Source: Fictibacillus terranigra (GTDB lineage: Bacteria; Bacillota; Bacilli; Bacillales; Fictibacillaceae). Taken from it: a stretch of 64,000 nucleotides of DNA. How positions within the stretch are numbered: position 1 is the stretch's first letter; each line of letters begins with the position of its first letter. The notes beneath the pieces are model-generated. The model worked only from the letters and a program-made list of their open reading frames with translations. It made no database searches and was not told the origin of the DNA. The translations under genes were made by a program, and so were the position numbers. The stretch spans positions 1-64,000 of the forward strand of contig NZ_JAUHLN010000003.1 in NCBI RefSeq assembly GCF_030412265.1, read 5' to 3'. This document shows, piece after piece, positions 35,248-63,448 of this stretch.

Positions 35248-35278
35248 GTTTTATGCCTCCATTAATCTAAATTAAACG

Positions 35279-35309
35279 TTCATATTGTAAATCAGTTTCG
35301 TACAAACTA
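35279..35309 (+). promoter_or_regulatory. Possible sigma-G promoter of the ligase gene
   Basis: TTCATA (35279-35284), 18 nt, then CAAACTA (35303-35309), close to sigma-G consensus (GNATA, CATNNTA). Known LigD/Ku in B. subtilis is made in the forespore under sigma-G, which makes this plausible. Confidence 0.35.
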
Positions 35310-35326
35310 TTCCTGAGGTGAAATAA

Positions 35327-42333: not shown

Positions 42334-42345
42334 CCGTTTGTCCGC

Positions 42346-43212: not shown

Positions 43213-43236
43213 TCACATCACCACTCTCTTAAGCTC

Positions 43237-43688: not shown

Positions 43689-43716
43689 GTATATTCTCCC
43701 TCCTATTCAATGAAAT

Positions 43717-45024: not shown

Positions 45025-45097
45025 TCCCTAAACCCCCTTAATATCCATTGATTAGAAAGCGGTTACAATTCCTTGATAGACGCTTAAACCACGTCTC

Positions 45098-46012
45098 CTA
45101 CACCCTCTGTTCCATATTCCCTCCTCTCACCTGCTGCAGGTGGCCTGTAAGCCTCCGTTCCGTCATTTCTTTAACCTGACTTACGCAATCCATCAGCCTG
45201 TCAAAATCAATGCCTGTTTCAATGCCCATTTCATTAAGCATAAATACAAAGTCTTCGGTCGAATCATTTCCTGCAGCACCTGGTGCAAATGGGCACCCCC
45301 CGAGACCGCCAATGGCAGTATCGAAAGAGGTAATTCCAGCCTGCAAAGCAGCGAATGAATTCGCTTTGGAAAATCCGTATGTATCATGGAAGTGTGCTGT
45401 AACTTTACCCTTTGTGCCGAGGTCTAATGTTTTTGAAAATAACTGATAGACCTGGTTTGGATTCGCACGGCCGATCGTATCGCATAAAACAATTTCATCT
45501 ACCTCTAACGTTCCCAATCTCTTCACGATATTCAATGTTTTTTCTTCTGCCACAAGACCTTCATACGGGCAGTGAAAGGCGGTAGCGATACTGAATCTTA
45601 CAAACATGTTCTCGCTTTTTGCCTCTTCTACTACTAATGATAGCTGGTGAAGTGATTCTTCTACGGACATCCGAACATTCTTCTTGTTAAACGTCTCGCT
45701 TGCCCCGGCAACAAGAGCAAGATTTTTAGCTCCCGCATCTCTTGCCCGTTCAAATCCTTTTTTGTTCGGAATAAGGACCAGGTATTGCACATCTGGCTGT
45801 TGATCGATGTTTCGATAGACCCTATCGGCGTCTGCCATTTGCGGCACATGCTTTGGCGAAACAAACGAGGTGGCCTCCATCCTTCTGATCCCCGTCTTTC
45901 CTAAGGCGTGAATAAGCTGCAGTTTCTTTTCGGTCGGGATAAACGTATTTTCATTTTGGATGCCATCCCGCGGTCCCGATTCAATGATTTCTACACGTTT
46001 CGGTAAATTCAT
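45098..46012 (-). CDS. Hydroxymethylglutaryl-CoA lyase
   Basis: 304 residues, DRE-TIM metallolyase fold. IIESGPRDGIQNENTFIPT near 8-26 (R of the DRE-type motif), ATSFVSPKHVPQMADADRVY, HFHDTYGFSKANSFAALQAG (metal-binding His pair) and the signature IGGLGGCPFAPGAAGNDSTE with the active-site Cys near 266. Splits HMG-CoA into acetoacetate and acetyl-CoA, last step of leucine and HMG catabolism. Second gene of the operon, 18 nt after caiB. Confidence 0.93.
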   Translation of the reverse strand: MNLPKRVEIIESGPRDGIQNENTFIPTEKKLQLIHALGKTGIRRMEATSFVSPKHVPQMADADRVYRNIDQQPDVQYLVLIPNKKGFERARDAGAKNLALVAGASETFNKKNVRMSVEESLHQLSLVVEEAKSENMFVRFSIATAFHCPYEGLVAEEKTLNIVKRLGTLEVDEIVLCDTIGRANPNQVYQLFSKTLDLGTKGKVTAHFHDTYGFSKANSFAALQAGITSFDTAIGGLGGCPFAPGAAGNDSTEDFVFMLNEMGIETGIDFDRLMDCVSQVKEMTERRLTGHLQQVRGGNMEQRV

Positions 46013-46030
46013 CAGCTGCTCTCCTTCCTG

Positions 46031-47260
46031 TCATTTCAGAATTCCTGTTTCGTTATTGATAATGATTCCTTTCTCTTGCCATTCTTCATATCGGGTCTTT
46101 GTGATACCCAGCTTTTCTTTTAAAACTTCTTCCGTATGTTCTCCAAGCTTAGGACCGGGCCAGTTAATCTTTCCAGGTGTCTTGCTCATTTTTGGAACAA
46201 TACCAGGAACCTTAAGTTTTCCCAGCCCTTCTACATCCAGCTCGCAAATCATTTTACGAGCAATAAAGTGCGGATCTTGCATCATATCTTCCACACTATA
46301 GATGGAGCCGGCAGGTATGTTGTATTCATCCAATATTTTTAGTGCATCCTTTAAGTTATGCTGTATTGTCCAGCCACCGATAACTTTATCGAGGTACTCC
46401 GCCTTCTGTACTCGTCCATGATTGAAAGCATAATCAGGATCATCTCGCAAATCTTCTCGATTGATGGCTTCCATCAGCCTTTTAAAGATGCCATCCCCAT
46501 TTGCTCCGATAACAACGTACTTTCCGTCTTTGCAAAGGTATGTATTGGAAGGTGCTATTCCTGGCAGAGTACTGCCCGTTCTTTCACGGATCACTCCGTA
46601 TTGGTCATACTCTGGGACAGCACTTTCCATCAAGCTGTAGATCGCCTCGTAAAGTGCGACATCCACACATTGCCCTTCTCCGGTTTGATCTCTATGATAG
46701 ACAGCCATTAAAGCTCCCATAACGGCATAGAGAGCAGTTACAGAATCTCCTAAACTGATTCCTACTCTTGTCGGAGGACGATCAGGATACCCGGTTAAAT
46801 ACCGAATTCCTCCCATTGCTTCCCCAATACTGCCAAAGCCCGGTTTATTCCGGTATGGGCCATCCTGGCCATAACCTGAAACACGAACCATAATGATAGA
46901 GGGATTATATTTCTTTAAGTCCTCATAACCAATGCCCCACTTTTCCAGCGTGCCAGGTTTAAAGTTTTCAATAATAATATCGATCTCTTTAGCAAGCTCT
47001 CGAATGATTTCCTGCGCTTCTTCCTTTCGAAGATCTAAAGAGATGCTTTTCTTATTCCTGGACTGCACATACCACCATAAAGAAGTCCCCTCATGCAGCA
47101 TTCTCCATTTCCGAATGGGATCCCCCTTTCCTGGCGGCTCAACTTTAATAACCTCAGCACCGAAATCCGCCAATAATCTTCCGGCGAACGGCCCCGCTAT
47201 TAAACTGCCGATTTCCAAAACCTTCAGCCCGTTTAACGGCCCGATCTTTTGTTTATCCAT
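46031..47260 (-). CDS. CaiB/BaiF class III CoA-transferase
   Basis: About 409 residues from MDKQKIGPLNGLKVLEIGSL. ATG 47260 is chosen because GGGGTGGAG lies just upstream. LADFGAEVIKVEPPGKGDPI and VSGYGQDGPYRNKPGFGSIG are family hallmarks. The catalytic Asp region follows in YDLLI-like position. Moves CoA between carboxylic acids (succinyl-CoA, formyl-CoA or acyl-CoA donors). Placed before HMG-CoA lyase, it would activate the imported acid to its CoA ester. First gene of the operon, opposite the GntR regulator. Confidence 0.9.
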   Translation of the reverse strand: MDKQKIGPLNGLKVLEIGSLIAGPFAGRLLADFGAEVIKVEPPGKGDPIRKWRMLHEGTSLWWYVQSRNKKSISLDLRKEEAQEIIRELAKEIDIIIENFKPGTLEKWGIGYEDLKKYNPSIIMVRVSGYGQDGPYRNKPGFGSIGEAMGGIRYLTGYPDRPPTRVGISLGDSVTALYAVMGALMAVYHRDQTGEGQCVDVALYEAIYSLMESAVPEYDQYGVIRERTGSTLPGIAPSNTYLCKDGKYVVIGANGDGIFKRLMEAINREDLRDDPDYAFNHGRVQKAEYLDKVIGGWTIQHNLKDALKILDEYNIPAGSIYSVEDMMQDPHFIARKMICELDVEGLGKLKVPGIVPKMSKTPGKINWPGPKLGEHTEEVLKEKLGITKTRYEEWQEKGIIINNETGILK

Positions 47261-47297
47261 CATACTCCACCCCATTTAGTAGATTAGCCCCGAATGA

Positions 47298-47404: not shown

Positions 47405-47495
47405 GAAATTCTTTCACAAACTCCTTGAGTTGTTGTAAACTATTAATTAGACAGAAAATAACGACTTGAACTTATGTTTTATAGGAGGTCTTGAA

Positions 47496-48212: not shown

Positions 48213-48383
48213 CATTATTGCACTCATCCTGTTTCATCAGTTACTTTCTGCCTGATTCATTCTCCGACTATCTGCTGATTTTACTTTCGAAAAACTAGAA
48301 TTTTTTGGGATAAATTGCACTTAACATATTATTCCAACCGCGTTAGTCTAGGGTGGAATAAAAAAACGGGAGGATGGATAAGG

Positions 48384-48857
48384 TTGAGACTGATTAAAAA
48401 AGTAACATCCTGCATCTTTGTTGCCTTTTTAAGTATTACATTCCTCGTCGCCCCAGGGGGCTTTACGAGCAAAGCTATAGCGGAGACACACACCTATGAC
48501 GGTAAAGCCCCTTCCTACAACAATTGCGATGACTCTGGTGTGACGAAAAAATCCTTGAAGATCACCAATCCTGATGGCTCTTATGCCACCCTGCAATTGA
48601 GATTCAGCACCACATGCAAGACAGCGTGGGCCAAGATCACTTTGAGCAGACCAGCCAAAACAGATGGTGAAGCCACTGCCTTGGTCGTACGAAATACAGA
48701 TAATAAACAGTATGGGTGCCACAATGCTGGCGGTAACGGAGAAATCAACAAAGGGCAGACTTCCTGTTACACCCCTATGGTATATGACTTGGATCCCCGG
48801 AAAGCAAAGGCAGTTGGATTTTGGCCGTATACCCGTGGAGAGACAGATTGGTATTAA
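48384..48857 (+). CDS. Secreted DUF2690 family protein (copy 1)
   Basis: 157 residues from TTG 48384, 8 nt after GGGAGGAT. Sec signal peptide ending FTSKAIA-E. Mature domain with four Cys: YDGKAPSYNNCDDSGVTKK, LQLRFSTTCKTAWAKITLSR and NGEINKGQTSCYTPMVYDLD. This is DUF2690, a small secreted domain often with two disulfides, role unknown. Followed 17 nt later by a paralog. Confidence 0.8.
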   Translation: MRLIKKVTSCIFVAFLSITFLVAPGGFTSKAIAETHTYDGKAPSYNNCDDSGVTKKSLKITNPDGSYATLQLRFSTTCKTAWAKITLSRPAKTDGEATALVVRNTDNKQYGCHNAGGNGEINKGQTSCYTPMVYDLDPRKAKAVGFWPYTRGETDWY

Positions 48858-48877
48858 AAAAGAAAGGATGATTTTTG

Positions 48878-49354
48878 TTGAGGAAAAAGATCAAAGGATT
48901 TTTTTTGTCCATAGCGATCATTGCAGCTGCAATCATTACATCTTTCGGTACGTTTGAACAGTCTGCCCATGCAGAAAACCATTCGTATGACGGAAAGAGT
49001 CCATACTACAATAACTGTGATGACAGTGCGGTTACAAAAGATAAAAAATGGATCGACTCTGTTTCTTACGTAGAGCTGAAGTTTAGCACGGCATGCAAAA
49101 CCGCTTGGGCAAAGGTAACCATCACCCGAAAAGCGACATCCAATTATGAAGCGGATGCAAGGATTGTGCGCAGTACGGATGGCAAAGCGCTAACGTGCGA
49201 CAGTTCAGGCGGAAACGGTTCGGTAAATACGGGACAAACTTCCTGTTACACAGGAATGGTATATGATTATGACCCAAGAAAAGCAAAAGCACAGGGCAAA
49301 CATGCCATACCAAACAGTGATGCCTATAAAGTGGCCGAAACCATCTGGTACTAA
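48878..49354 (+). CDS. Secreted DUF2690 family protein (copy 2)
   Basis: 158 residues; TTG 48878 (or TTG 48875) follows AAAGGATG. Signal peptide ending EQSAHA-E. The mature domain matches copy 1 closely: YDGKSPYYNNCDDSAVTKD, ELKFSTACKTAWAKVTITRK, NGSVNTGQTSCYTGMVYDYD and DPRKAKA. The same four Cys are kept. Tandem duplication with a shared promoter is likely. Confidence 0.8.
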   Translation: MRKKIKGFFLSIAIIAAAIITSFGTFEQSAHAENHSYDGKSPYYNNCDDSAVTKDKKWIDSVSYVELKFSTACKTAWAKVTITRKATSNYEADARIVRSTDGKALTCDSSGGNGSVNTGQTSCYTGMVYDYDPRKAKAQGKHAIPNSDAYKVAETIWY

Positions 49355-51275: not shown

Positions 51276-51297
51276 CAATAATTTGTCAAACATATAG

Positions 51298-51333
51298 AAG
51301 GCAGAATCCTTTTTCCAAAGGACCTGCCTTTCT
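51298..51333. terminator. Bidirectional intrinsic terminator
   Basis: AAGGCAG...TCCTTT and AAAGGA...CTGCCTT with a short loop. Lies between the convergent DoxX-like gene and the end of the ten-gene sigma-54 operon. Confidence 0.7.
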
Positions 51334-51347: not shown

Positions 51348-52562
51348 CTACTTCAAAAAATTAAGAGCGGAAAATGTGTAAAGCTTCACTGTTTGAACAA
51401 GCTCCTCTATATCAACATATTCATCGGCATGGTGAGGGATATAGCGATCACCTGCTCCTGTAGTAATAATTGGCACCCCAGCAAGATGAAGGAACGTGCC
51501 ATCTGTTGCCCCCGGAACACCATTATAGATAGGAGGCTTTCCCGTCAATTCGGAATAAGCCTTTGCCACAGCCTGAACAACTTCATGATCTTTTGGTGTC
51601 TCTGTCCAAGGGCGGTCTTCGATCACTTCAAGAGATGCACTAAAAAGATCATCTTCATTGCTGAGCCGCTCAATGATATCTTCCATATTCCTTCTGAGTT
51701 GTGAATGATCCTGTCCAGGTACCGTCCGTATGTCGAGAGAGGCCATACATTGTGAAGGAACGACATTGATTTGTGGTTCTCCTTTTACGGGTGATTGAAG
51801 GATAGTTGGCGTGATACTCGGCCAGCCGAGATAAGGATGTTCTCCCAGCCTTTCTTTTTCCGCTTGTTCCAGTTTATCCAATTCCACAATCAATCTTGCC
51901 ATTCTTGTGACAGGATTGATTCCGGTGAGCGGCATTGCGCCGTGGGCCATTTTTCCAAACGTTTTCAAAACGATCCGCATTGCACCCTTTTGAGTTATAC
52001 ATAGCTGGTTTTCCTCTGGTTCACAAATAATCGCTCCATCCACATCTTTAGCCCAGCCATTATTAATAAACTCTTTTATTCCAATCATCATGCCTTCTTC
52101 GTCACAAGGAATACATAGTATAATTTTACCTTTGAAAGGAATCTGTGATTTTTTCAAAGAATGAACAGCAGAGATTGCAGCAGCTAAATTTCCTTTTGTA
52201 TCACAAGAACCTCTTCCGTATATTCTCCCGTTACTGATTTCTCCGCCAAATGGGTCATAGGTCCAGGAGTCCAGGTCCCCTTCAGTTACCACATCTGTAT
52301 GCCCTTCAAATAAAAGTGTTTTACCAGGAAGGCCAGAGTCATAGACCGCGATCACATTTGGCCGTCCTGGCACTACCTCTTCATAGTAGACCTCCAGCCC
52401 GATGTCCTTTAGGTAGTCAAGGAGGAAACGGGCAACCTTCTCCTCATTACCGCCTTCAACATTGGGACGATAAACACTCTTTATCCGGATGAGTCTTCTT
52501 GTCAGCTCGACTACTTCTTCTTCATCAACATGGTTCAGAATCGATTCAATGGCAGTTGTCAT
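51348..52562 (-). CDS. M20-family metallo-amidohydrolase/peptidase
   Basis: 404 residues. Di-zinc site motifs: LLFEGHTDVVTEGD (His, Asp near 84-86), YGRGSCDTKGNLAAAI (bridging Asp), CDEEGMMIGIKE (Glu-Glu), ICEPEENQLCI and PGATDGTFLH. Dimerisation domain between about 195 and 310. ArgE/DapE/CPG2-type enzymes hydrolyse N-acyl amino acid or peptide bonds. Last gene of the sigma-54 operon; its ATG overlaps the TAA of the P1 hydrolase gene. It may be the amidase for the imported compound. Confidence 0.88.
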   Translation of the reverse strand: MTTAIESILNHVDEEEVVELTRRLIRIKSVYRPNVEGGNEEKVARFLLDYLKDIGLEVYYEEVVPGRPNVIAVYDSGLPGKTLLFEGHTDVVTEGDLDSWTYDPFGGEISNGRIYGRGSCDTKGNLAAAISAVHSLKKSQIPFKGKIILCIPCDEEGMMIGIKEFINNGWAKDVDGAIICEPEENQLCITQKGAMRIVLKTFGKMAHGAMPLTGINPVTRMARLIVELDKLEQAEKERLGEHPYLGWPSITPTILQSPVKGEPQINVVPSQCMASLDIRTVPGQDHSQLRRNMEDIIERLSNEDDLFSASLEVIEDRPWTETPKDHEVVQAVAKAYSELTGKPPIYNGVPGATDGTFLHLAGVPIITTGAGDRYIPHHADEYVDIEELVQTVKLYTFSALNFLK

Positions 52563-53548
52563 TACTCCCTTCCTTTCCTAAGTGATTTTCTGACGTCTTT
52601 ACTTGAAGGAAAGTTTACAATTCCTTCAGCGTTCAGAATGGCTTGGATGACTGCTTCTGCTAAAACGTCTGCTGCCAGGGTTCCAATGAGGTCTACTGAA
52701 GCGCTCACTTCTCCAGTAGCGAGAGAAAATATGGTGTCCCCATCATACATCGTGTGCACAGGATAGATCGTTCTTGCTAATCCGTCATGAGCCATGGAGG
52801 CGACTTTTGTCGCTTGTGACTTTGTTAAATCAGCATTGCACGCGACCACAGCAATCGTTGTATTCGTACCGACAGTTAATGGAATCTCGGGCTGTTCAAG
52901 CATCCACTCCAAGCTGCTCCTGATATATCCCAGATCATCTCTTGCACCGGCAATCACTTCTCCAGTGTTCGGATATCTAATTTCGCCTATGGCATTGACA
53001 GCGACAATAGCACCTACGATTAAACCATTGGGCAGGTTGAAAGAGGCAGAGCCAAGGCCTCCCTTCATCGCACGATGATGGCCAGCCACTTTACCGACCG
53101 TAGCCCCGCATCCTGCCCCAGAGTTACCCAAGGGAAAATGTCCCTGTGCTGCATTTGATGCGGCCTGATAACCCATTTTTTGATCAGGCCTGGCCAAAGG
53201 ATCTCCAACCGGCAAATCAAACAGGACAGCTGAGGGAACAATCGGTACAACTCCTACGCCAACATCCAAGCCAACCCCTTTATCTTCCAAAAATCTCATA
53301 ACGCCGCTTGCCGCATCAAGTCCATAGGCGCTGCCTCCCGCCAGGCAGATACCATGTACCTTCTCCATGAGATTCAGCGGGTGAAGGAGATCCGTTTCCC
53401 GGGTCCCTGGAGCTGATCCCCGAACATCCACACCACAAACAGCACCATTTTCCATCACTAATACAGTACAGCCCGTATAGCCTTTGCTATCTTCTTCATT
53501 GCCGACTTTAATGCCCGGAACATCGGTGATATTCTGGAAATTACCCAC
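52562..53548 (-). CDS. P1/DmpA-family N-terminal nucleophile hydrolase
   Basis: About 328 residues if started at GTG 53548, which overlaps the TAG of the preceding gene and has TCTGGAG upstream; an ATG at 53605 would run 58 nt into that gene. Start MGNFQNITDVPGIKVGNEED is the normal P1 opening. VRGSAPGTRETDLLHP, GICLAGGSAYGLDAASG, GAGCGATVGK and KGGLGSASFNLPNGLIVGAI carry the self-cleavage/nucleophile region near 190-210. DmpA-type enzymes autoprocess and cleave N-terminal or beta-amino acid amides. Proposed here as the pantothenate amidase. Confidence 0.87.
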   Translation of the reverse strand: MGNFQNITDVPGIKVGNEEDSKGYTGCTVLVMENGAVCGVDVRGSAPGTRETDLLHPLNLMEKVHGICLAGGSAYGLDAASGVMRFLEDKGVGLDVGVGVVPIVPSAVLFDLPVGDPLARPDQKMGYQAASNAAQGHFPLGNSGAGCGATVGKVAGHHRAMKGGLGSASFNLPNGLIVGAIVAVNAIGEIRYPNTGEVIAGARDDLGYIRSSLEWMLEQPEIPLTVGTNTTIAVVACNADLTKSQATKVASMAHDGLARTIYPVHTMYDGDTIFSLATGEVSASVDLIGTLAADVLAEAVIQAILNAEGIVNFPSSKDVRKSLRKGRE

Positions 53549-54105
53549 TACATTTCTCCAGAGATCTTGGATTTTTTGTTTCCGCTGTGGTCCAGTCTTT
53601 TCCAAGCCACAACTACAGCCAGCGTGATGATCACGGAGACTATAGCTTCAGGAATCCCATTGGTAACTGCAATTGTAACCGCGACCCCAGGTGCAATATA
53701 GCCTCTGACTACAGCCATGATTAAAACGAGGAGGGTATTCGTAAATGCTCCTATAAAGCCTGCTACACCGATAGCGGCATATTCGTTTACTCTTTTCAAG
53801 GAGAGATATGAGAAGTAGGCTGTGACACCAATAAACAATCGAGGAAGAATCGCGACGAGAGGATCCTTGAAAAGCGGAATCGTTGCATCCAAAAAGGATG
53901 AAACTCCGAAGATTAATCCGATGACCAGTCCAACAAACGGACCTTGCATTACCCCTCCAATGATGGCAGGAACATGCATGATGGTTGCGTTCCCGGCTGC
54001 TGTTGGAACAGGAATGAAGCCTAACCGTGTGACACCAAGCAAAATAGCTACTGCCCCCAATACACCTGCAATGACAATCTTTCTAGTCGTTAATCCTCTT
54101 TCCAT
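53548..54105 (-). CDS. ECF transporter S component (PF12822-like, PanT-like?)
   Basis: 185 residues from ATG 54105 (ribosome binding site AGGAGGG). Six TM helices; KIVIAGVLGAVAILLGVTRL at 9-28, then ATIMHVPAIIGGVMQGPFVG and LVIGLIFGVSSFLDATIPLF. The HxPxIIGGxxxGPxxGxxxGxxFGxxS signature is that of the ECF_trnsprt S components, which include the pantothenate binder PanT. It binds the vitamin-like ligand and docks on EcfT. Substrate call is inference from family and from the neighbouring enzymes. Confidence 0.85.
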   Translation of the reverse strand: MERGLTTRKIVIAGVLGAVAILLGVTRLGFIPVPTAAGNATIMHVPAIIGGVMQGPFVGLVIGLIFGVSSFLDATIPLFKDPLVAILPRLFIGVTAYFSYLSLKRVNEYAAIGVAGFIGAFTNTLLVLIMAVVRGYIAPGVAVTIAVTNGIPEAIVSVIITLAVVVAWKRLDHSGNKKSKISGEM

Positions 54106-54167
54106 TTGATTACCCTCCTTATAATTGAAAGAATTGTAAGTTTTGCATTTTATGGTTAGGTTGATAT

Positions 54168-55022
54168 CTAGTAGGGAAATGGAAATAGCAATAAGAGAGA
54201 AGCGAATAAAATACAAAAAAGAATAGCGATATAATCTTTGTTCTGTGCTTTGTATTTTGTGTAAATGGACCGTTCGTTTCCTGGTGTGTAGCATCTTGCT
54301 TCCATGGCGAGCACTAAGTCTTCTGCCCGTGCCATCGCTACATTGAACAATGGGATAATGATCGGAAACACATCTTTTGTCCTCTGTATGATTCTCCACC
54401 AGGCACCTGTACCAAACTCTGCCCCCCTTGATGCCTGGGCCTTCATCATCTTTTCCATTTCCATTGCAAACGTTGGGACAAAACGGATAGCGATGGTAAT
54501 AATCAGTGCAAATTCATGAACCGGAAACTTTACATACTTTAATGGCCGTAATAAACTCTCAATCCCATGAGTGATCTGTGTGGTAGATGTACTTAGTGTC
54601 AGTACACTGCTCAAAAAGATGATTTCAATGAAACGCAATGCAGATACGATGACCAGCCGTATACTGTCAGAGGTAATCAGGATAAAACCATGATCAACTA
54701 AAACCGTTCCTCCGGAAGCCACTTTGTTATAGAACATCAATTGCAGTACGGCTAATATCAAAATGAATGGGATTGCCGGCTTGACACCTGACAAACCATA
54801 ACTTATCGGAATACGTGAGATATAAAATAAGCAAATGGCAAATGCGAGGGCAATAATATTACCTACATAGGTATCACATATAGCCATTGCAATGACCAGT
54901 ATGGTGAAGGACAATAGCTTCACACGCGGATCTAAACGATGGACAAGTGAACCTGTCGGCAAATACTGGCCAATGGTTATATTGCGAGATAATTCAAATT
55001 CAAAACCAGCCAATATTTTCAC
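54168..55022 (-). CDS. ecfT: ECF transporter T component (EcfT)
   Basis: 284 residues with five to six TM helices and two coupling helices: MKAQASRGAEFGTG near 192-205 and VLAMEARCYTPGNERS, the paired ARG-type motifs that touch the ATPases. GSLVHRLDPRVKLLSF is the conserved EcfT opening. Housekeeping ecfA1A2T usually sits in the ribosomal protein cluster, so this is a dedicated second copy. Overlaps ecfA2 by 4 nt. Confidence 0.9.
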   Translation of the reverse strand: MKILAGFEFELSRNITIGQYLPTGSLVHRLDPRVKLLSFTILVIAMAICDTYVGNIIALAFAICLFYISRIPISYGLSGVKPAIPFILILAVLQLMFYNKVASGGTVLVDHGFILITSDSIRLVIVSALRFIEIIFLSSVLTLSTSTTQITHGIESLLRPLKYVKFPVHEFALIITIAIRFVPTFAMEMEKMMKAQASRGAEFGTGAWWRIIQRTKDVFPIIIPLFNVAMARAEDLVLAMEARCYTPGNERSIYTKYKAQNKDYIAILFCILFASLLLLFPFPY

Positions 55023-55891
55023 CTCCTGAACGGCTGAAGAATAGATACGATTTCCTTGGCGGCAGACTCCCGCTCAAATGCTTTTAGATCAACGGAATAG
55101 CCCCGTTGTTTTAGATGTGCCAGGATCTCAACCGTTTGAGGTGCGGCAATATGGTGTCTGCGAAGTATTTCTGTATTGCCAAAAATCTCACGAGGCGTTC
55201 CATCTATGAGATTTTTTCCGTCAGCTAATACGTATATCCGTTGAGCTAAATAAGCGACTTCCTCCATATTGTGTGAGACAAAAATGACGGTCATCTTTTC
55301 TTGCTTATTCAACAGAGCAATTCTGTCCAATAATTCTTGCCTGGAAAAGGGATCCAGACCAGCTGTCGGTTCATCGAGCACCAAAATTTCTGGTTTGAGA
55401 GCCAGAACACCGGCTAGAGCTACCTTTCTTTTTTGTCCGCCGCTCAAGGCATAGGTCACCCTGTCTTTCAATTCCTCAAAAGACAGGCCCACCAGTTCCA
55501 TCGCCCACTTCACACGATCTCTTACTTCTTTTAGCGGCAGCCCCATTTTTAAAGGGCCATAAGCGATATCATCACCGATCAGCTTCTCAAAAATCTGATC
55601 TTCAGGATTTTGGAACACAAGTCCTACTTTTCTTCTCAACGCTTTAACATCCAGTTTTGGATCCGATAAATTCTGGCCATCCACTAATACTTCTCCCCGC
55701 TGAGGACGCATCAGTCCGTTAAAATGCTGAATTAATGTCGATTTTCCAGAACCGGTATGCCCAATAACCGCTACGCATTCTCCTTTTTTCACCTGCAGAT
55801 TAATCCCGGCCAGTGCCTTGTATTCAAGAGGTGTCTTTTCCATGTAGGTATGGTACAAATTGTTCACTTCTAAAATGGCAGATTCACTCAT
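55019..55891 (-). CDS. ecfA2: ECF transporter ATPase EcfA2
   Basis: 290 residues. Walker A GHTGSGKSTLIQHFNG near 43-58, Q-loop VFQNPEDQIFE, signature YALSGGQKRKVALAGVLA and Walker B PEILVLDEPTAGLDPFSR. The FQNPEDQIFE Q-helix is typical of EcfA. Pairs with EcfA1; ATG overlaps the ecfA1 stop by 4 nt. Confidence 0.92.
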   Translation of the reverse strand: MSESAILEVNNLYHTYMEKTPLEYKALAGINLQVKKGECVAVIGHTGSGKSTLIQHFNGLMRPQRGEVLVDGQNLSDPKLDVKALRRKVGLVFQNPEDQIFEKLIGDDIAYGPLKMGLPLKEVRDRVKWAMELVGLSFEELKDRVTYALSGGQKRKVALAGVLALKPEILVLDEPTAGLDPFSRQELLDRIALLNKQEKMTVIFVSHNMEEVAYLAQRIYVLADGKNLIDGTPREIFGNTEILRRHHIAAPQTVEILAHLKQRGYSVDLKAFERESAAKEIVSILQPFRR

Positions 55892-56751
55892 CCCACAAAC
55901 ACCCCCCGTTTGGCTGATAGACGGACAACCTCTTGTATAATCTCGTTATTCCGGATCAGATCTGACTGGAATTCTTCGTCATATTCATGAATCAATCTTG
56001 CTAATCGGCTCGCAACTGGAATATCAAGTTTCAATTGCTGCATCCTTTCATACTGTTGAAAAATCTCCCTTGGTGACCCATCCATAACAATTTGTCCCTG
56101 TTCAATGACGATGACCCGGCTGGCTTCTGCCACTTCTGACATATGATGAGTAACGGAAACAATGGTCATCCCGTCATCGTTCAGTTCGCGCACAACATTG
56201 AGTATGTCTCTTCTTCCGTAGGTATCCAGCATGCTGGTTGCTTCATCGAGCACTAAACAATCCGGTTTCATCGCAATGATACCCGCAATGGCAACCCGCT
56301 GTTTCTGTCCGCCGGATAGGTGATGAGGCGGTCTTTGCCGAAACTCACTCATCCCGACTGCTTCTAGTGCATAATCAATTCTATCCTTCATTGTTGCTGC
56401 AGGGATTTCAATATTCTCTAGACCAAAGGCCACATCGTCTTCAACAATGGTCGCAACAATCTGGTTATCGGGATGCTGAAATACCATACCTACCTTTTGC
56501 CGAATTTCGCGCAGCATTTGTAGTTCCTTTGTGTTGCTGCCACTTACCAGAACATCACCGCTGCTGGGTTTTAAAATCCCGTTCAAGTGCTTTGAAAGGG
56601 TAGACTTTCCAGAGCCGTTATGTCCGACGATCGCAACATATTCTCCCGGAAATATATCAAAGGAAACACCCTTCAATACGGGAATGGAGGTTTTATTATT
56701 TAACTTGTATTCAAAAGAAAGGTCGTTAACTTTAATAAGAGGTTCTATCAT
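55888..56751 (-). CDS. ecfA1: ECF transporter ATPase EcfA1
   Basis: 287 residues from ATG 56751, preceded by GGAAGGGGATATG. Walker A GHNGSGKSTLSKHLNGIL, Q-helix VFQHPDNQIVATIVEDDVAF, signature HLSGGQKQRVAIAGIIAM and Walker B DCLVLDEATSMLDTYGRR. C-terminal helical tail from about 230. First ECF gene in the operon, just after the MFS gene. Confidence 0.92.
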   Translation of the reverse strand: MIEPLIKVNDLSFEYKLNNKTSIPVLKGVSFDIFPGEYVAIVGHNGSGKSTLSKHLNGILKPSSGDVLVSGSNTKELQMLREIRQKVGMVFQHPDNQIVATIVEDDVAFGLENIEIPAATMKDRIDYALEAVGMSEFRQRPPHHLSGGQKQRVAIAGIIAMKPDCLVLDEATSMLDTYGRRDILNVVRELNDDGMTIVSVTHHMSEVAEASRVIVIEQGQIVMDGSPREIFQQYERMQQLKLDIPVASRLARLIHEYDEEFQSDLIRNNEIIQEVVRLSAKRGVFVG

Positions 56752-56778
56752 GCATATCCCCTTCCTCTGCGTGCACAT

Positions 56779-58095
56779 CTACAAAGATTTTGTTTCTACA
56801 AACGGTTCATCGGCTTTCATTCCTGAACCTTCCTTTTTTAAACTAAATACTAGCAAACTCGTAATGATTAAAGAAAAACTTAGAAAGAATAGTCCTGCTT
56901 CCATCTTTCCGGAGGCATCCTTTAAATATCCGATCATATAGGGTCCAACAAAACCTCCTAAGTTACCGATTGAATTAATGAGTGCAATCCCTACAGCGGC
57001 TGAAGCTTCTGTCAAAAAAAGTGCAGGCAATGACCAGAAAGGACCAAAAAAGCTGTAGATTCCAACGGTCGCAATAGACATCATCAAAATCGAAAGATAG
57101 GGATTTGACGTCATCCCAGCCCCAATCAAGCCTAGGGCTCCCAGTAAAGGCGGCAGTGCAGTAGATAATCTTCGCTCACCCGTTCGATCTGAACGCCTGG
57201 CCCACAAGATCATACAGATTCCTCCAGCAATGTAGGGCACCATGGAAATGAGTCCTACCTGAGTGTTAGAGAGCACCGTCGAGAAGGATTTAATGATGGT
57301 CGGCATCCAAAATCCAATGCCGTATAGACCGACTACGAGAGTTAGGTAAATCAAAGAGAACTTCCAAACCAGAGGGTTGGTCAGCACTTGTCGGGTTGAA
57401 GACTGTTTGAGGTTTCCTTTTTGGCTACTTTCACGCTCAATTTCTTTTATGAGCCAATCTTTTTCTTCCTGTTCCAGCCAATTCGCATCTTGAGGGCGAT
57501 CCGTTAAGTAAAAGTACGTAATAATACCTATAATGATGGCCGGTATTCCTTCTAAAACAAACATCCATCGCCATCCCGGCATACCTGCCCATTGAATGGA
57601 ATCCATGATCCAGGTCGATAATGGAGCTCCAATGATATTTGAGGCTGCCAGCGCAGTCATAAACAAGGCGAAAGCTCTGGCTTGTTCTTTTGCACGAAAC
57701 CAGTAAGTAATATATAAAATAATGCCTGGAAAAAATCCCGCTTCCGCTATTCCTAAAAGAAATCGCAGAACATAGAGATGTGCGGCGCTCTCTGCCCAAC
57801 CGGTCAAAATCACAACCAATCCCCAGCTGACCATGATCCGTGCGATCCACTTTCTTGCTCCAAATTTGTGGAGAAGTATATTGCTGGGAATCTCAAAGAG
57901 AAAGTATCCAAAGAAGAAAATACCTGAGATTAATCCGAAGGTAGAGCTGGCCAAGGCTAAATCTTTGTTCATATCCAGTGCAGCATATCCAAGGTTGACC
58001 CTGTCAAGAAAGGCTACAATGTATAACAAAAAAATAAACGGAATTATTCTCCAAAACACTTTTTTTGTTGTTCGCTCTTCAATTGATAGATTCAT
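56779..58095 (-). CDS. MFS transporter, anion:cation symporter (ACS) family
   Basis: 438 residues, twelve TM helices. DRVNLGYAALDMNKDLAL near 31-48 is the ACS family signature after TM1, and LLGIAEAGFFPGIILYITYW near TM4 is typical of phthalate/tartrate/glucarate permeases. Takes up organic acids with protons. In this operon it may import a free acid intermediate such as pantoate or a dicarboxylate, beside the ECF importer. Ribosome binding site AAGGGAGGTT. Confidence 0.88.
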   Translation of the reverse strand: MNLSIEERTTKKVFWRIIPFIFLLYIVAFLDRVNLGYAALDMNKDLALASSTFGLISGIFFFGYFLFEIPSNILLHKFGARKWIARIMVSWGLVVILTGWAESAAHLYVLRFLLGIAEAGFFPGIILYITYWFRAKEQARAFALFMTALAASNIIGAPLSTWIMDSIQWAGMPGWRWMFVLEGIPAIIIGIITYFYLTDRPQDANWLEQEEKDWLIKEIERESSQKGNLKQSSTRQVLTNPLVWKFSLIYLTLVVGLYGIGFWMPTIIKSFSTVLSNTQVGLISMVPYIAGGICMILWARRSDRTGERRLSTALPPLLGALGLIGAGMTSNPYLSILMMSIATVGIYSFFGPFWSLPALFLTEASAAVGIALINSIGNLGGFVGPYMIGYLKDASGKMEAGLFFLSFSLIITSLLVFSLKKEGSGMKADEPFVETKSL

Positions 58096-58144
58096 ATAAA
58101 CCTCCCTTTCTCTTTCTGATTTCTTTTAAAAGCATAAAATTAGA

Positions 58145-58918
58145 CTAGACCCCTCGGCCGCCATCGAGATTCATGATTTCTCCAGTGACCGCTTTTGCCA
58201 AGTCGGAAGCCAGATATAAAGCGGCCTGAGCAATGTCCTCCGGTTGAATCAAGGTGCCTAAAGGAACACTGTCCAGAAAAATTTTCTTTTTGTCTTCCTC
58301 AACTTTTTTTTCATCACCAGGCAGGAATTTTCCAAGCATCGGCGTTTCAGCGGGTCCTGGATTAATGGCATTCACCCGAATTTTAAAAGGTGCCAATTCA
58401 AGCGCCAGTGCTTTCGTTAACATAATCGCGGCGCCTTTCGATGCACAATAAGCGTTTAAACCAGGTCTTGCCCGTATACCCGCAATGGAAGCGATATTTA
58501 TAATCGAACCTTTCCTGATTCGTTTCATGTGAGGAACAAGGTGCCGTGTGGTCAAAAAAATCGACTTCGCATTGACGTTCATAATCTTGTCCCATTCATT
58601 TATGCTCATTTCTTCAATGGGAGTGAAAAACTGAGGTACTCCGGCACAATTCAGCAAAACGTCTAAATGCTGATATTGATGGACGGCTTCATTAACCAGC
58701 TTCTGGACACTTTCGTCTTCTCCAACATCTGTTTGAATCACCATTACTTCCCCTGTATTTCCTATTTCCCCAGCAGTACAATTGGCCGCTTCACGATTTA
58801 AGTCAGCTAAAACGACGTTTGCTCCTTCGGCTGCAAACAGCTTGGCTGCAGCCTTCCCCATACCAGAGCCCGCTCCTGTAATGATAGCTGTTTTTCCTTC
58901 AAGCAATCCCGCAGTCAT
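58145..58918 (-). CDS. Short-chain dehydrogenase/reductase
   Basis: 257 residues, classical SDR. GKTAIITGAGSGMGKAAAKL (TGxxxGxG cofactor motif at 15-22), VLADLNRE (Asp after beta2 favours NAD+), NCAGVPQF, catalytic Ser near 144 (SIINIASIAG) and YCASKGA (Tyr-Lys near 158-162). C terminus NLDGGRGV. Oxidises a secondary or primary alcohol; proposed pantoate 4-dehydrogenase step. ATG overlaps the aldehyde dehydrogenase stop by 4 nt. Confidence 0.9.
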   Translation of the reverse strand: MTAGLLEGKTAIITGAGSGMGKAAAKLFAAEGANVVLADLNREAANCTAGEIGNTGEVMVIQTDVGEDESVQKLVNEAVHQYQHLDVLLNCAGVPQFFTPIEEMSINEWDKIMNVNAKSIFLTTRHLVPHMKRIRKGSIINIASIAGIRARPGLNAYCASKGAAIMLTKALALELAPFKIRVNAINPGPAETPMLGKFLPGDEKKVEEDKKKIFLDSVPLGTLIQPEDIAQAALYLASDLAKAVTGEIMNLDGGRGV

Positions 58919-60363
58919 AGGTTAATCACCACCATTCGTTCGTCTGTCATTTCTTGAATCGCATAATGCGGCCCTTCTTTTCCGATCCCGCTGTTCTTAA
59001 CGCCGCCATATGGCATGACATCATTCCGATATGTTGATACATCATTTATGATCACTCCGCCATATTGCAGAACTTTGGCCGCTCTCATCGCCAGCTGTAA
59101 ATCCATTGTGAAAATACCCGCCTGAAGTCCATACTCTGATTGATTGGCAAACTGAAAAGCCGCATCAATATCTTGATAAGGAATGATGCTCACAATGGGA
59201 GCGAATACTTCCTTACAGACCACCTTCATGTCAGGTTTTGTGTTGACGAGCACTGTCGGGAATAACAGGGCACCTTCCCTTTTAACAGGAAGTAAGGATT
59301 TAGCTCCTTGTTCTATTGCTTCATTGATCCATTTCTCTGAACGAATGGCCTCTTTTTCACTGATCATCGGTCCTACGTCTGTTTCTTCTGCTTCAGGATC
59401 ACCAACGTTCAATTGTTGAACATGATGTAGATAACGCTCCGTAAACTCATTTAAGACTGATTGATGAACATAAAGGCGCTGTACTGCTATGCAGGCTTGT
59501 CCAGCGTTATGAAAACTGCGGCTTGCCGTTAGTTTCGCTGCCAACTCTAAATCTGCGTCACTGTGTACAATGTTCGGGGAATTGTTGCCCAATTCAAGAG
59601 CCACCGGCCTCAAGCCGCTTCGTTCTTTAATATGCCTTCCGACTTCACCTGAACCAGTAAATGTATACATTGCGATGCGCTCATCTTCCAAGAGCCATTC
59701 CCCCACTTCACTCCCTGCCCCAGTGACGATGTTGACGTAGCCTTTCGGAAGACCCGCTTCCTCCAAAAGTTCGACCAGCTGGAAAGTGGCCAATGGTGTA
59801 GTGGTAGCAGGCTTAATGACAATCGTGTTTCCGGCAGCAAGGGCGGGAGCGATCTTATGAACCCCTAATAACAAAGGATAATTGAATGGGGTAATCACTC
59901 CGATAACCCCTTTTGGAACGCGAATGGTAAAGCCTAACCGGTTGTCGGCTCCTTCCGTTGCCTGAAGGGGAATCATTTCACCTGCGATCCTTTTCGCTTC
60001 TTCTGCGGATAAACGGATCGTGTTAATTGTCCGGTCTAGTTCTCCTGCCGCATCTTTTAGGGTTTTCCCTACTTCTTTTACTAAGGAAAGTTCAAAATCC
60101 CTGCGCCTTTTTTCCATTAAATCAGCGGCTTTTGAAAGAATTGCAGATCTCTGGCAGGCTGTTAGCTGGTCCGCCTTAAAAACTTTTTCCGCAGCAGTCA
60201 CCGCCTGATCGACATGATGCTTACCTGCTTTCGCGATGGCAGCGATCACCTCCCCTGTGTATTTATGATACACAGGAATACTTTTCTCGGTTTGAACATG
60301 TTTGCCATCAATGTACAGATGCAATTTTTTGTCACTCTTTAATGGAGTCTGTGTGTCGGTCAT
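58915..60363 (-). CDS. Aldehyde dehydrogenase (NAD(P)+-dependent)
   Basis: 482 residues, ALDH superfamily. GVITPFNYPLLLGVHKIAPA (Asn of the oxyanion hole), IVIKPATTTPLA, FTGSGEVGRHI, LELGNNSPNIV (general base Glu), and FHNAGQACIAVQRLYVH with catalytic Cys near 285. EVFAPIVSIIPY and MPYGGVKNSGIGKEGP complete it. Closest recalled types are lactaldehyde/phosphonoacetaldehyde-like enzymes. Proposed to oxidise aldopantoate to dimethylmalate. 15 nt after the dehydrogenase gene. Confidence 0.9.
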   Translation of the reverse strand: MTDTQTPLKSDKKLHLYIDGKHVQTEKSIPVYHKYTGEVIAAIAKAGKHHVDQAVTAAEKVFKADQLTACQRSAILSKAADLMEKRRRDFELSLVKEVGKTLKDAAGELDRTINTIRLSAEEAKRIAGEMIPLQATEGADNRLGFTIRVPKGVIGVITPFNYPLLLGVHKIAPALAAGNTIVIKPATTTPLATFQLVELLEEAGLPKGYVNIVTGAGSEVGEWLLEDERIAMYTFTGSGEVGRHIKERSGLRPVALELGNNSPNIVHSDADLELAAKLTASRSFHNAGQACIAVQRLYVHQSVLNEFTERYLHHVQQLNVGDPEAEETDVGPMISEKEAIRSEKWINEAIEQGAKSLLPVKREGALLFPTVLVNTKPDMKVVCKEVFAPIVSIIPYQDIDAAFQFANQSEYGLQAGIFTMDLQLAMRAAKVLQYGGVIINDVSTYRNDVMPYGGVKNSGIGKEGPHYAIQEMTDERMVVINL

Positions 60364-60378
60364 GCTTTATCCATCTCC

Positions 60379-61464
60379 TTATTTAAAATTCATGCTCCTA
60401 CTCGTCATTTGTTCACGAATGGCACTTCCCATTTCAAATGTCGTGTGTTTCCCGCCTAGGTCTCTCGTGGAAACTTTTCCTTCCAGAAGGACCTCTTCGA
60501 TAGACTCAACAATCAAGTCTGCCATATCAGGAAAACCTAGATGCTGCATCATTAAGCTGAGACTCCAAATCTGGGCGATGGGATTCGCTATTCCTTTTCC
60601 GGCGATGTCAGGCGCCGACCCATGAATCGGTTCAAACATTGAAGGATACGTCTTTTCAGGGTTAATATTTCCTGAAGGTGCCAGCCCAAGACCGCCTACA
60701 ATAGCCGCCCCAAGATCAGTCAGGATGTCACCGAAAAGGTTGCTTGCTACAACCACATCCAACTCTTCTGGCCGTGTAATAAAATAGGCGGCAAGCGCAT
60801 CAATATGATATATATCCGTTCGTATAGAAGGATGAGTCCGGCTGACTTCCTTTACGATTTCATCCCAGAATGGCATTGAAAAATTAATTCCGTTTGATTT
60901 CGTTGCTGCGGTCAGCCGTTTTTTATTTCTTTTTTCGGCAAGTGAGTAGGCATATTTGATCACACGTTCGGTTCCATATCTAGTAAACACATTGTTTTGT
61001 ACTGCAAGCTCAAAGGGGGTATTCTCATGTAACCGCCCTCCCATGTTCGAGTATTCTCCTTCCGTATTTTCACGGATCACCACAAAATCCAGATCATGAT
61101 GCGCCTTATATCGGAGAGGGCTGTCCAATCCTCTCAGAAGCTTGATCGGACGTAAATTGATATATTGCTGAAAGGTCCTGCGAATAGGCAAGATCAGCTC
61201 CCAAACCGATATGTGGTCAGGTACAGTTGGGGCACCTATTGCGCCTAGAAGAATCACATCATAATCACGTAAAATTTTCAGGCCGTTCCCCGGCATCATC
61301 TTTCCATGTTTTAAATAGTAATCACAATTCCAATCAAACGAATCAATGGAAAAATGAATCCCTCCATGAAGTTCCCCTATCTTGGTTAACGTTTTTAATC
61401 CCTCTGCCATGACTTCAGGCCCTATTCCATCACCAGGTATGGCGGCAATTGAAAAGTGCTGCAA
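60379..61464 (-). CDS. Isocitrate/isopropylmalate-type beta-decarboxylating dehydrogenase (D-malate/tartrate DH-like)
   Basis: 361 residues from TTG 61464 (GAGGTGATAAC upstream). AIPGDGIGPEVMAEGLKTL, INLRPIKLLRGLDSPL (substrate Arg), DFVVIRENTEGEYSNMGGRL, AATKSNGINFSM, DVVVASNLFGDILTDLGAAI (metal Asp residues) and MFEPIHGSAPDIAGKGIANP. The TEGEYSNMGGR loop resembles tartrate/D-malate dehydrogenases, not LeuB. These oxidatively decarboxylate 2-hydroxy dicarboxylates; 3,3-dimethylmalate would give 2-oxoisovalerate. First gene after the sigma-54 promoter. Confidence 0.9.
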   Translation of the reverse strand: MQHFSIAAIPGDGIGPEVMAEGLKTLTKIGELHGGIHFSIDSFDWNCDYYLKHGKMMPGNGLKILRDYDVILLGAIGAPTVPDHISVWELILPIRRTFQQYINLRPIKLLRGLDSPLRYKAHHDLDFVVIRENTEGEYSNMGGRLHENTPFELAVQNNVFTRYGTERVIKYAYSLAEKRNKKRLTAATKSNGINFSMPFWDEIVKEVSRTHPSIRTDIYHIDALAAYFITRPEELDVVVASNLFGDILTDLGAAIVGGLGLAPSGNINPEKTYPSMFEPIHGSAPDIAGKGIANPIAQIWSLSLMMQHLGFPDMADLIVESIEEVLLEGKVSTRDLGGKHTTFEMGSAIREQMTSRSMNFK

Positions 61465-61501
61465 GTTATCACCTCATTTTGTATTGTTAGTAACATACAC
61501 T

Positions 61502-61517
61502 TGCAAGATTTGTGCCA
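61502..61517 (-). promoter_or_regulatory. Sigma-54 (-24/-12) promoter
   Basis: On the minus strand TGGCACAAATCTTGCA matches the consensus TGGCAC-N5-TTGC(A/T) at every fixed position. Lies about 40-50 nt before the TTG start of the ten-gene operon and beside the sigma-54 activator gene. Confidence 0.9.
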
Positions 61518-61579
61518 ATTTAGTTTATTTTAAATTTTCAGAAATTATAGCGTATAGAAAAGTATGATGCGGAACTCAC

Positions 61580-61596
61580 TGTTGCAAATTACAACA
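61580..61596. promoter_or_regulatory. Palindromic enhancer site for the sigma-54 activator
   Basis: TGTTGCAAATTACAACA is a near-perfect 17-bp palindrome (TGTTG-N7-CAACA) about 70-80 nt upstream of the -24/-12 promoter, the usual distance for an upstream activating sequence. Confidence 0.6.
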
Positions 61597-61615
61597 CTCG
61601 TTTCAAGATGAAACC

Positions 61616-63448
61616 TCATAATTGGTATTCCTTTATTTTTCTCCAAAGTGTCGATCGGTCAATCCCGAGAGAATGTGCCGCCTTTGCTTTACTGTCATAT
61701 TTAAGGAGTGCCTTCCGGATTAAATCCCTTTCACTTTCCTTTATGGTTGCTTCACTGCCCACTGTTTCCTTACTCTGTCTCTTCCTGAGTTTTGGATAAA
61801 AGAAGGAAGCATCCTTAGCTGAAATTTCTGTGCCTTTTTGCAGCAAAACAATCCTTTCCAAAACATTTCTTAATTCACGGATGTTGCCTGGCCAGTGATA
61901 ATCCTGCAAAACCGGGACAAAGCCATCTTCCACTTTGGCGATCTGCTTCCGATGCATTTCATTGAACTGCTCAAGAAAATGTCTCATAAGCAAAGGGATA
62001 TCTTCCAATCTTTCTCGTAACGCTGGCAATTCCAGTGACAGTACATTCAACCGATAATATAAATCCGTTCTAAACTCCTTCTTGTTCATTTCTTCTTCGA
62101 TGTCTGAGTTAGTTGCTGCAATAATACGGACGTTCACAGGTATATTTCGTTGGCCGCCAATTCTGCGGACAGATCTTTCCTGTAGAACACGCAACAGGTG
62201 AGCTTGTATCTGTAATGGCATTTCGCCAATCTCATCTAGAAACAAAGTCCCTCCGTGCGCTAATTCGAAGAGTCCTTGTTTCCCGCCTTTTCTTGCTCCA
62301 GAAAAACTTCCTTCCTCATATCCAAACAATTCACTCTCCAGGAGACTTTCAGGAAAAGCTGCACAATTAACAGCGACAAAAGGACCAATAGCGCGGCTGC
62401 TCCCCAAATGGATGCCTTGAGCAAACAGCTCCTTACCTGTTCCGGACTCCCCTGTAATCAGAACCGTTGCATCCGTTTGCGAAATAATTTTTGCTTGTTC
62501 TTTCGCTTCCTTAATCGTTCTTGATTCACCAATAATATCATCAAGCCTGTATTTTGCTTCTAACCCGCTCTCATGTAACTTTTTCCTCAGTTTCATCTCC
62601 ATTCTTTGAAGATCGGTAATTTCTTTAAAGTTGGATACAGCTCCAACTACAGTTTGATTAAGCATAACTGGAAAACGGTTAATAATAATCTGCCGATCAA
62701 GAATCTTGGCTACATCCCCTATTTCTTTTCGTCCAGTCTGCAGCACTCTGAGCATATCGGAGTGCGGAATAAATTCCGTTATGTGTTTTCCAACTACCTC
62801 ACCTTCAAGTCCCAGATACTTTTTTGCATTTTCATTGGTTAGAGTAATTTTTCCTTGGCGGTCTACCGCTATTAATCCATCATGTGCAGAATCGACGATG
62901 GCTTTCACCTGATATTTTTCTTTAAACATCTCTCTCGTTATACCTATGAGATTGATCGCCTGCCGTACTGCGGAAAATATGGTGTCCTTCGACGGCTGGA
63001 CATAATAAATGTGTTCTTTGGTTTGTTGGGACATAGGCAGATGACTTTCCCAGGAAGGAACAAGAAATGAGGTATTGGTCTTTGCATTCGCAAGGTTAAC
63101 TTGCTCCCTGCTCCTGATTTCCAATATACTTTTTTGATTGGCATTTTCAGCATCCAGCCATTTTTTCTCTTCACCAGAAACAATGATCAAAGGATTTTTG
63201 TTAGTTAGTGAATTGACTTTAATTGTTTGTTCGAAGTCACTTAAATGCAAGGATAAGGGGACAATGGGAATTGAAAAAGAACGAACCTCGTTAACATAAA
63301 TGGATGGAGTGATGAGGACAAAAGGGTTCATGACATGATCCATGACCGTTTTTCTTGAGTGAAAGGATAATGCTTGAATCCCGCTCTCTTTTAATATATG
63401 AGCGATGAATTCCTCCAGCTCCTTATCCACTTTGTATAAAGCAATCAT
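61616..63448 (-). CDS. Sigma-54-dependent transcriptional activator (PAS-AAA+-Fis)
   Basis: 610 residues. N-terminal sensory part (1-185, PrpR-N-like), PAS domain about 190-300 ([20 protein letters not shown]), AAA+ domain about 315-550 with Walker A GESGTGKE near 340, GSFSGA loop near 380 (variant of GAFTGA), Walker [13 protein letters not shown] and the R-finger region, and a Fis-type HTH at the end ([18 protein letters not shown]). ATP-driven remodelling of sigma-54 polymerase at the adjacent -24/-12 promoter is the expected role. Transcribed in the same direction, upstream of the operon. No receiver domain, so it likely senses a ligand. Confidence 0.92.

Follow-up and report, generated by a model that had tools for sequence, protein, structure and literature searches.

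A sigma-54-associated operon in Fictibacillus terranigra that probably encodes uptake and catabolism of pantothenate

We analyzed 64,000 nucleotides of the Fictibacillus terranigra genome (contig NZ_JAUHLN010000003.1, positions 1 to 64,000; "the window" means this whole stretch) and describe a ten-gene operon on its minus strand that very probably serves the uptake and catabolism of pantothenate. Pantothenate degradation was described biochemically decades ago, as activities in pseudomonads, and proceeds through pantothenase (EC 3.5.1.22), pantoate 4-dehydrogenase (EC 1.1.1.106), and dimethylmalate dehydrogenase (EC 1.1.1.84). By domain families, the operon encodes the right enzyme class for each step. 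In the scheme we propose, the cell would use pantothenate as a carbon and nitrogen source under sigma-54 control, and probably also pantetheine from coenzyme A (CoA) debris. An energy-coupling factor (ECF) transporter with a dedicated PanT-like S component would import pantothenate, and a P1/DmpA hydrolase (P1) would probably free pantothenate from pantetheine-like amides. An M20 hydrolase would split pantothenate into D-pantoate and beta-alanine, a short-chain dehydrogenase/reductase (SDR) would convert pantoate to aldopantoate, an aldehyde dehydrogenase (ALDH) would convert aldopantoate to 3,3-dimethylmalate, and a tartrate-dehydrogenase-like enzyme would form 2-oxoisovalerate from it by oxidative decarboxylation; pantoate itself may enter through a major facilitator superfamily (MFS) carrier. 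Documented here are the gene set and its conservation, the affinity of the S component to PanT, and the CoA-pathway and aminotransferase/malonate-semialdehyde dehydrogenase neighbors; from them we infer the individual substrates.

The operon runs without interruption from 61464 to 51348, with all ten frames open and intergenic gaps, from first gene to last, of 15, −4, 49, 0, −4, −4, 62, −1, and −1 nucleotides (nt). First comes a beta-decarboxylating dehydrogenase of the isopropylmalate dehydrogenase type (60379 to 61464; PF00180), the proposed 3,3-dimethylmalate dehydrogenase. It is followed by the ALDH (58915 to 60363; PF00171), a proposed aldopantoate dehydrogenase with no NCBIfam equivalog above cut-off among the 25 matches listed, by the SDR (58145 to 58918; PF00106/PF13561), a proposed D-pantoate 4-dehydrogenase, and by the MFS carrier (56779 to 58095; PF07690), proposed to import pantoate or a like acid. 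The transporter genes encode the ATPases EcfA1 (55888 to 56778; above the TIGR04520 cut-off) and EcfA2 (55019 to 55891; above that of TIGR04521), EcfT (54168 to 55022; above that of PF02361), and the S component (53548 to 54105; PF12822), which starts at the ATG at 54105. Last are the P1 (S58) N-terminal-nucleophile hydrolase (52562 to 53548; PF03576), a proposed pantetheine-type amide hydrolase with ThnT among its solved relatives, and the ArgE/DapE-type M20 metallohydrolase (51348 to 52562; above the TIGR01910 cut-off), the proposed pantothenase. The P1 gene most likely starts at the GTG at 53548, which is preceded by GGAG and overlaps the S stop codon, rather than at the TTG at 53605 given in the open reading frame (ORF) list. 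Related loci were collected in a genome-contig scan that found 83 loci (numbered with L), of which the best 80 were used; these are mainly from Bacilli, the rest being from Chloroflexi and a small number of other bacteria. The closest relatives are Fictibacillus, the S component being 97% identical in L009. The S component is patchily distributed: with the own genome counted in both samples, it turned up in 8 of 34 family genomes (E up to 1e-10) and in 4 of 299 genomes sampled across the order (E up to 1e-30).

Directly upstream lies the gene of a sigma-54-dependent activator (61616 to 63448, minus strand; Sigma54_activat, PAS, and Fis-type helix-turn-helix domains in Pfam), the probable operon regulator, which also precedes the operon in Fictibacillus relatives and at a number of other loci. 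A −24/−12 sigma-54 promoter (TGGCAC-N5-TTGCA, 61502 to 61517, minus strand) has its first base 53 nt upstream of the first start codon; this site is the sole match to the strict pattern TGGCAC-N5-TTGCW on either strand of the 64 kb. A significant −24/−12 site, with a score that no more than 5% of 200 base shuffles attained, lies between regulator and first gene at 15 of 20 related regulator loci, and none was found in that interval in L015, L018, L024, L077, and L083. The repeat TGTTG-N7-CAACA upstream of the operon (61580 to 61596, minus strand) is a putative upstream activator site, and repeats of this type also occur upstream in 3 of 10 relatives examined (L009, L025, L040). Just downstream of the M20 gene, a hairpin at about 51296 to 51333 (minus strand; −19 kcal/mol, z −4.06) could act as a terminator; its T tract is weak, and a simple terminator scan did not list it. 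The first-pass annotation had described a minus-strand run of ten closely spaced or overlapping genes under sigma-54 control, had named their families, and had seen a matching enzyme class for every step of pantothenate degradation. The gene calls confirm the run, Pfam and NCBIfam assignments confirm the families and their fit to the pathway, and the adjacent enhancer-binding activator together with the unique promoter match agrees with sigma-54 control.

The S component resembles PanT, the pantothenate-binding S component of known structure, in both sequence and predicted fold. A profile of 35 sequences (the window and 34 of the 80 loci) had only two significant matches among solved chains, PanT 4rfs (E 4.6e-15) and 6zg3 (1.7e-9), the next being RibU at E 6.6, and the single window sequence again ranked 4rfs and 6zg3 first. 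An AlphaFold2 model of the S component (mean predicted local distance difference test score, 76.7) had 4rfs/6zg3 entries as its top two Foldseek matches (2.2e-6 and 7.3e-5); RibU and ThiT entries scored no better than 1.3e-3. Both structures are identified as PanT by their titles and in the accessible part of PMC7755397, which gives R95, N131, and W64 of the Lactobacillus brevis protein as important for pantothenate binding. R95 and N131 correspond, counted along the alignment, to R89 and N123, which are invariant in 35/35 S sequences. We propose that this S component binds and imports pantothenate.

At identity thresholds of at least 55% for the dehydrogenase, 45% for the SDR, and 50% for the ALDH, 27 of the 80 loci carry one or more oxidation genes (dehydrogenase, 22; SDR, 23; window-type ALDH, 14). 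All 27 also encode an amide hydrolase, either M20 (22 loci) or an unrelated AS-family amidase (5 loci), and never both. Searching all ORFs of the loci recovered the amidase in the same five and, outside the oxidation loci, only a 27% match in L071. ALDH types were told apart from MmsA by pairwise identities; the ALDH of L029-L032, L034, L037, L040, L041, and L062 (the copy next to the SDR) is of a third type, about 31 to 34% identical to both references. Ten Brevibacillus loci have ECF, P1, and M20 genes with no oxidation gene at the locus. A dehydrogenase 75 to 79% identical lies elsewhere in 9/9 such genomes searched (L077 not among them), and in 5/5 regions fetched it forms a separate module with ALDH and SDR genes, with an unrelated ORF between dehydrogenase and ALDH in one of the five. 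TRAP-type transporter genes, in place of an MFS carrier, follow three of these five modules (families checked in one, L127). In the Brevibacillus loci L015, L016, L018-L021, L023, L026, L058, and L077, a peptidase gene (M3 family in L015) follows M20 in the ECF-P1-M20 operon.

These stand-alone modules, with a TRAP-type transporter in three of five cases, could mean that the oxidation genes act on a four-carbon sugar acid, with threonate or erythronate converted to tartrate as the substrate of the tartrate dehydrogenase, and that the ECF transporter is a mere neighbor. The dehydrogenase scores 524 bits against TIGR02089 (tartrate dehydrogenase; cut-off, 470.4), and its nearest solved chain is the tartrate dehydrogenase 3flk, as this explanation would have it. 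An amide hydrolase at every one of the 27 oxidation loci would, on the other hand, be useless for a sugar acid, and genes fit for beta-alanine stand beside the operon in three loci. The specificity helix also argues against it. Work on isopropylmalate dehydrogenase showed that one helix sets substrate choice in this superfamily; here the helix reads WELILPIR, unlike WGSLLKFR in 3flk. A W-[ED]-L helix is found in 29/29 readable enzymes of the module (23 at S loci, including the window, and 6 in separate modules; a second, unreadable L038 piece was left out) and in 0/8 paralogues from other contexts, seven of which have W-G and one (L139) neither. Because it leaves the amide hydrolases and the CoA-pathway neighbors unexplained, we rank a four-carbon sugar acid or D-malate pathway low and consider it very unlikely. 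We also considered a multiple origin of the W-E-L helix and dropped it, since the tree needs two changes yet allows a single origin. Four W-G paralogues, 62 to 63% identical to the dehydrogenase (L131:7088-8218, L132:6939-8018, L135:6819-7913, L137:6710-7789), have by eye thiolase-like neighbors in all four cases, acyl-CoA-dehydrogenase-like ones in three, and electron-transfer-flavoprotein-like ones in two, which points to a different pathway.

CoA-pathway genes recur beside the transporter, each of the CoaX, CoaBC, PanE, and PanB calls being above its curated cut-off. In L076, L083, and L087, the gene that follows S encodes a type III pantothenate kinase. In L056 (Chloroflexi), CoaX-CoaBC is followed by PanE-PanB on the opposite strand and then by A1-A2-T-M20-P1-S, and in L066 and L079, also Chloroflexi, PanE-PanB occupies the equivalent place beside ECF-M20-P1-S (L056:599-10543, L066:1964-10540, L079:2036-10540). 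Neither PanC nor the archaeal-type pantothenate synthetase was found in these three genomes, and a pantothenate-forming enzyme is thus missing from them. Such neighborhoods, which in PanC-less Chloroflexi come with no oxidation genes, would suit a system for vitamin scavenging, in which CoA synthesis would draw on pantothenate released from conjugates by the hydrolases and the dehydrogenases would have an unrelated function. The F. terranigra genome has both PanB and PanC, however, and a catabolic role agrees with the sigma-54 activator and with the three co-transcribed oxidoreductase genes. Moreover, Bacillus subtilis was shown to import pantothenate with a different, biotin-type S protein, PanU (PMC11487621). 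Scavenging appears very improbable to us as the function of the operon.

A search of 40 genomes recovered PanC in 27, namely, that of the window, all 25 Bacilli-type genomes sampled (including L086, a Bacillota metagenome-assembled genome [MAG]), and L088; the search covered 18 of the 27 oxidation-locus genomes, and all 18 have it. Having PanC, and in F. terranigra PanB as well, these bacteria can do without the importer as a source of the vitamin, consistent with pantothenate catabolism. The 13 of 40 in which PanC was not found comprise Chloroflexi, two Halanaerobiales-type MAGs, one Atribacteria MAG, and L087; all are MAGs by title, and genes may therefore be missing from the assembly. We dropped the idea that these are pantothenate auxotrophs: PanB is present in 7 of the 13, and the archaeal-type synthetase was found in 0/15 genomes searched. 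Solitary S genes were examined in four Neobacillus niacini-type genomes (L036, L042, L047, L050), in which no M20 (E up to 1e-70) and no P1 (E up to 1e-30) was found, as expected if S there only imports. In the Neobacillus-type loci L042, L046, L047, L049-L051, L053, L054, and L057, which have no P1 or M20 at the locus, two conserved proteins of about 130 amino acids, by eye seemingly VOC-like and globin-like, follow ECF and S directly or nearly so.

P1 is present at 50 of the 80 loci and M20 at 40 (at loci lacking oxidation genes, 26/53 and 18/53). Among oxidation loci, P1 is encoded at 24 of 27, and the other three genomes (L024, L055, L061) have it elsewhere, with 60 to 68% identity. All five amidase loci keep P1, whereas four of their genomes gave no M20 (E up to 1e-70) and the fifth, L031, has a 66% copy elsewhere. 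Because the amidase swaps for M20, we assign the splitting of the pantoyl-beta-alanine amide to M20, which makes it a reasonably probable pantothenase. In P1, the position of the Thr nucleophile is kept in 49/49 aligned sequences and the preceding Asn in 48/49; this Asn-Thr site is presumably that of autoproteolysis, with the Thr as nucleophile, as in the P1/DmpA family. Members of that family include ThnT, which cleaves pantetheine, and beta-aminopeptidases. Of the 13 PanC-less genomes, 11 likewise have P1: seven encode it at the locus, and a genome search located it in L082, L083 (where it has an internal stop), L084, and L085 but not in L074 or L087. Given its presence in 24 of 27 oxidation loci, in the other three genomes, and in these 11, P1 may supply pantothenate from pantetheine, a role for which we see the chances as about evenly balanced.

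The roles could instead be exchanged, with P1 as the pantothenase and M20 stripping a pantothenate conjugate of another group, for instance an acyl or aminoacyl one. The greater frequency of P1, its presence elsewhere in all three genomes whose oxidation loci lack it, and the beta-aminopeptidases in its family would all suit this arrangement. It sits poorly with the PanC-less genomes that have P1 and S but gave no close M20 (L067, L068, L076), where a pantothenase would waste the vitamin, and with the five loci in which the amidase replaces M20 and not P1. We regard the exchanged roles as rather unlikely, though the least so of the alternatives, and retain M20 as the candidate pantothenase.

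The proposed end products, beta-alanine and 2-oxoisovalerate, could be used by the products of further genes of the host, judging from homology and gene order. In L011 and L025, a malonate-semialdehyde dehydrogenase (MMSDH) and an omega-aminotransferase directly follow M20, and in L062 a pair 67% and 68% identical to that of L011 stands divergently upstream of the ECF operon. Counterparts of these two genes, 75% and 70% identical, are adjacent in the F. terranigra genome, where they are grouped with genes for dihydropyrimidine-dehydrogenase-type, amidohydrolase, and CN-hydrolase proteins in what resembles a reductive pyrimidine degradation cluster. That pathway yields beta-alanine, and this setting suggests that the aminotransferase/MMSDH pair acts on beta-alanine. 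The L062 pair (L062:2494-7112) is divergent from a PucR-type gene, and the pair of the own genome (L136) likewise adjoins a PucR gene. An MMSDH of the L011 type is found farther off in L014, where the neighbors look by eye like an inositol cluster, and in L088. We did not count L061 and L070 as aminotransferase loci, their proteins being only 33% identical to the L011 aminotransferase. For 2-oxoisovalerate, the genome has a cluster of a sigma-54 activator, ptb, bcd, buk, lpdV, E1 alpha, E1 beta, and E2; we assigned these names by eye and take the order to match the Bacillus bkd operon, which presumably serves 2-oxoisovalerate.

Several observations weigh against pantothenate catabolism as the function of this operon or against parts of the scheme. 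The gene set does not travel as one unit in all relatives that have the transporter, its modules being split or the dehydrogenase missing, and several of the neighboring loci come from MAGs. L017, L033, L035, L043, and L044 carry SDR and ALDH genes at the locus but lack the dehydrogenase there; searches of these five genomes gave no W-E-L type, L017 and L044 having the W-G type, L035 and L043 no dehydrogenase match at E up to 1e-90, and L033, whose locus looks decayed, a 47% match with an unread helix. P1 and M20 occur without oxidation genes at the locus in L014 and L022; the genome dehydrogenase of L014 is of the W-G type only, and none was found in L022. PanC-less Chloroflexi encode both hydrolases as well, although the destruction of pantothenate would be unexpected there. 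The family name of the dehydrogenase is tartrate dehydrogenase, and the best solved relative of P1 is a nylon hydrolase (9cxr), ahead of ThnT. The NCBIfam models for E1 name pyruvate dehydrogenase (the alpha subunit is below cut-off, the beta above), so the branched-chain reading of that cluster rests on its gene order. Finally, W64 of PanT aligns to Phe in the S component of the window.

Set against these points, the reading of the first-pass annotation as pantothenate import and degradation is strengthened by the neighborhoods, by an S component nearest to PanT, and by an oxidation trio that recurs with an amide hydrolase. It had placed PanT in the S family, which the sequence and fold searches corroborate; in the comparison with PanT structures, the nearest match and the Arg and Asn binding residues held up and the Trp did not. 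The gene set does recur in other genomes, with the restriction that an oxidation gene is present at only 27 of the 80 S loci. Where relatives might have carried genes for an unrelated substrate, pantothenate kinase, PanB/PanE/CoaX/CoaBC, and genes fit for beta-alanine were found instead.

The pantothenase protein was stated in 2023 to be still unknown (PMC10393543, accessible part), and pantothenase is therefore without a reference sequence. The literature searched, from which subscription papers mostly fell outside the scope, yielded no paper on pantothenate-degradation genes. In the accessible portions of these articles, PMC4231531 has EC 3.5.1.22 as a model reaction without a gene, PMC13404326 has a reaction list, PMC9320016 has nothing on pantothenate-degradation genes, and PMC12570885 does not mention pantothenate degradation, a hydrolase, or catabolism. 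If our interpretation is right, the operon supplies genes for an old pathway whose first enzyme has no known protein, an example of an ECF importer dedicated to the breakdown of a vitamin that its host also synthesizes, and a way to recognize pantothenate degraders in genomes. It also amounts to a short list of clonable pantothenase candidates with a clear growth phenotype. A bolder combination, quite unlikely to hold as a whole, is that the operon names three sequence-less enzymes (the M20 pantothenase, the SDR pantoate dehydrogenase, and the W-E-L dimethylmalate dehydrogenase) and P1 as a pantetheinase, and that in Chloroflexi with PanB and PanE and without PanC or the archaeal-type synthetase the hydrolase pair belongs to a PanC-independent pantothenate route, in the extreme case forming the pantoyl-beta-alanine bond.

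Elsewhere in the window, a second carboxylate cluster (40966 to 47275, minus strand) encodes an AtuA-family protein, an HpcH/HpaI-type lyase, a CitMHS carrier, an HMGL-like lyase, and a class III CoA transferase, with a GntR-like gene beside it at 47466 (plus strand). A LigD-type primase-polymerase and an ATP-dependent DNA ligase are encoded at 34351 to 36271 as divergent, separate genes. Two similar tandem proteins with, by eye, signal-like starts are encoded at 48315 to 49354, the first of which matches DUF2690. No Rfam family at gathering score and no tRNA was found in the 64-kb window.

The proposed system shares features with several known ones and differs from each. Like the known pantothenate degradation pathway, it has a fitting enzyme class per step, to which uptake genes and candidate genes for both end products are added here; that pathway consists of activities in pseudomonads, whereas we propose genes, in Bacilli, with an ECF importer. 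P1, a putative pantetheine hydrolase, has the family and the Asn-Thr site of the pantetheine hydrolase ThnT, but 9cxr outscores ThnT against it. The dehydrogenase falls in the same family as tartrate/D-malate dehydrogenase (TIGR02089; 3FLK) above the curated cut-off, but has W-E-L-I-L-P-I in place of W-G-S-L-L-K-F and another genomic context. PanU (YhfU) is likewise a pantothenate S component in a Bacillus relative, but it resembles biotin S proteins, and degradation genes are not described with it in the accessible text of PMC11487621. Closest is ECF-PanT (4RFS, 6ZG3), whose S component is of the same family, nearest by sequence and fold, and has the same Arg and Asn binding residues; the operon described here differs in the change of W64 to Phe, in encoding A1, A2, and T together with S, and in the catabolic genes linked to them.

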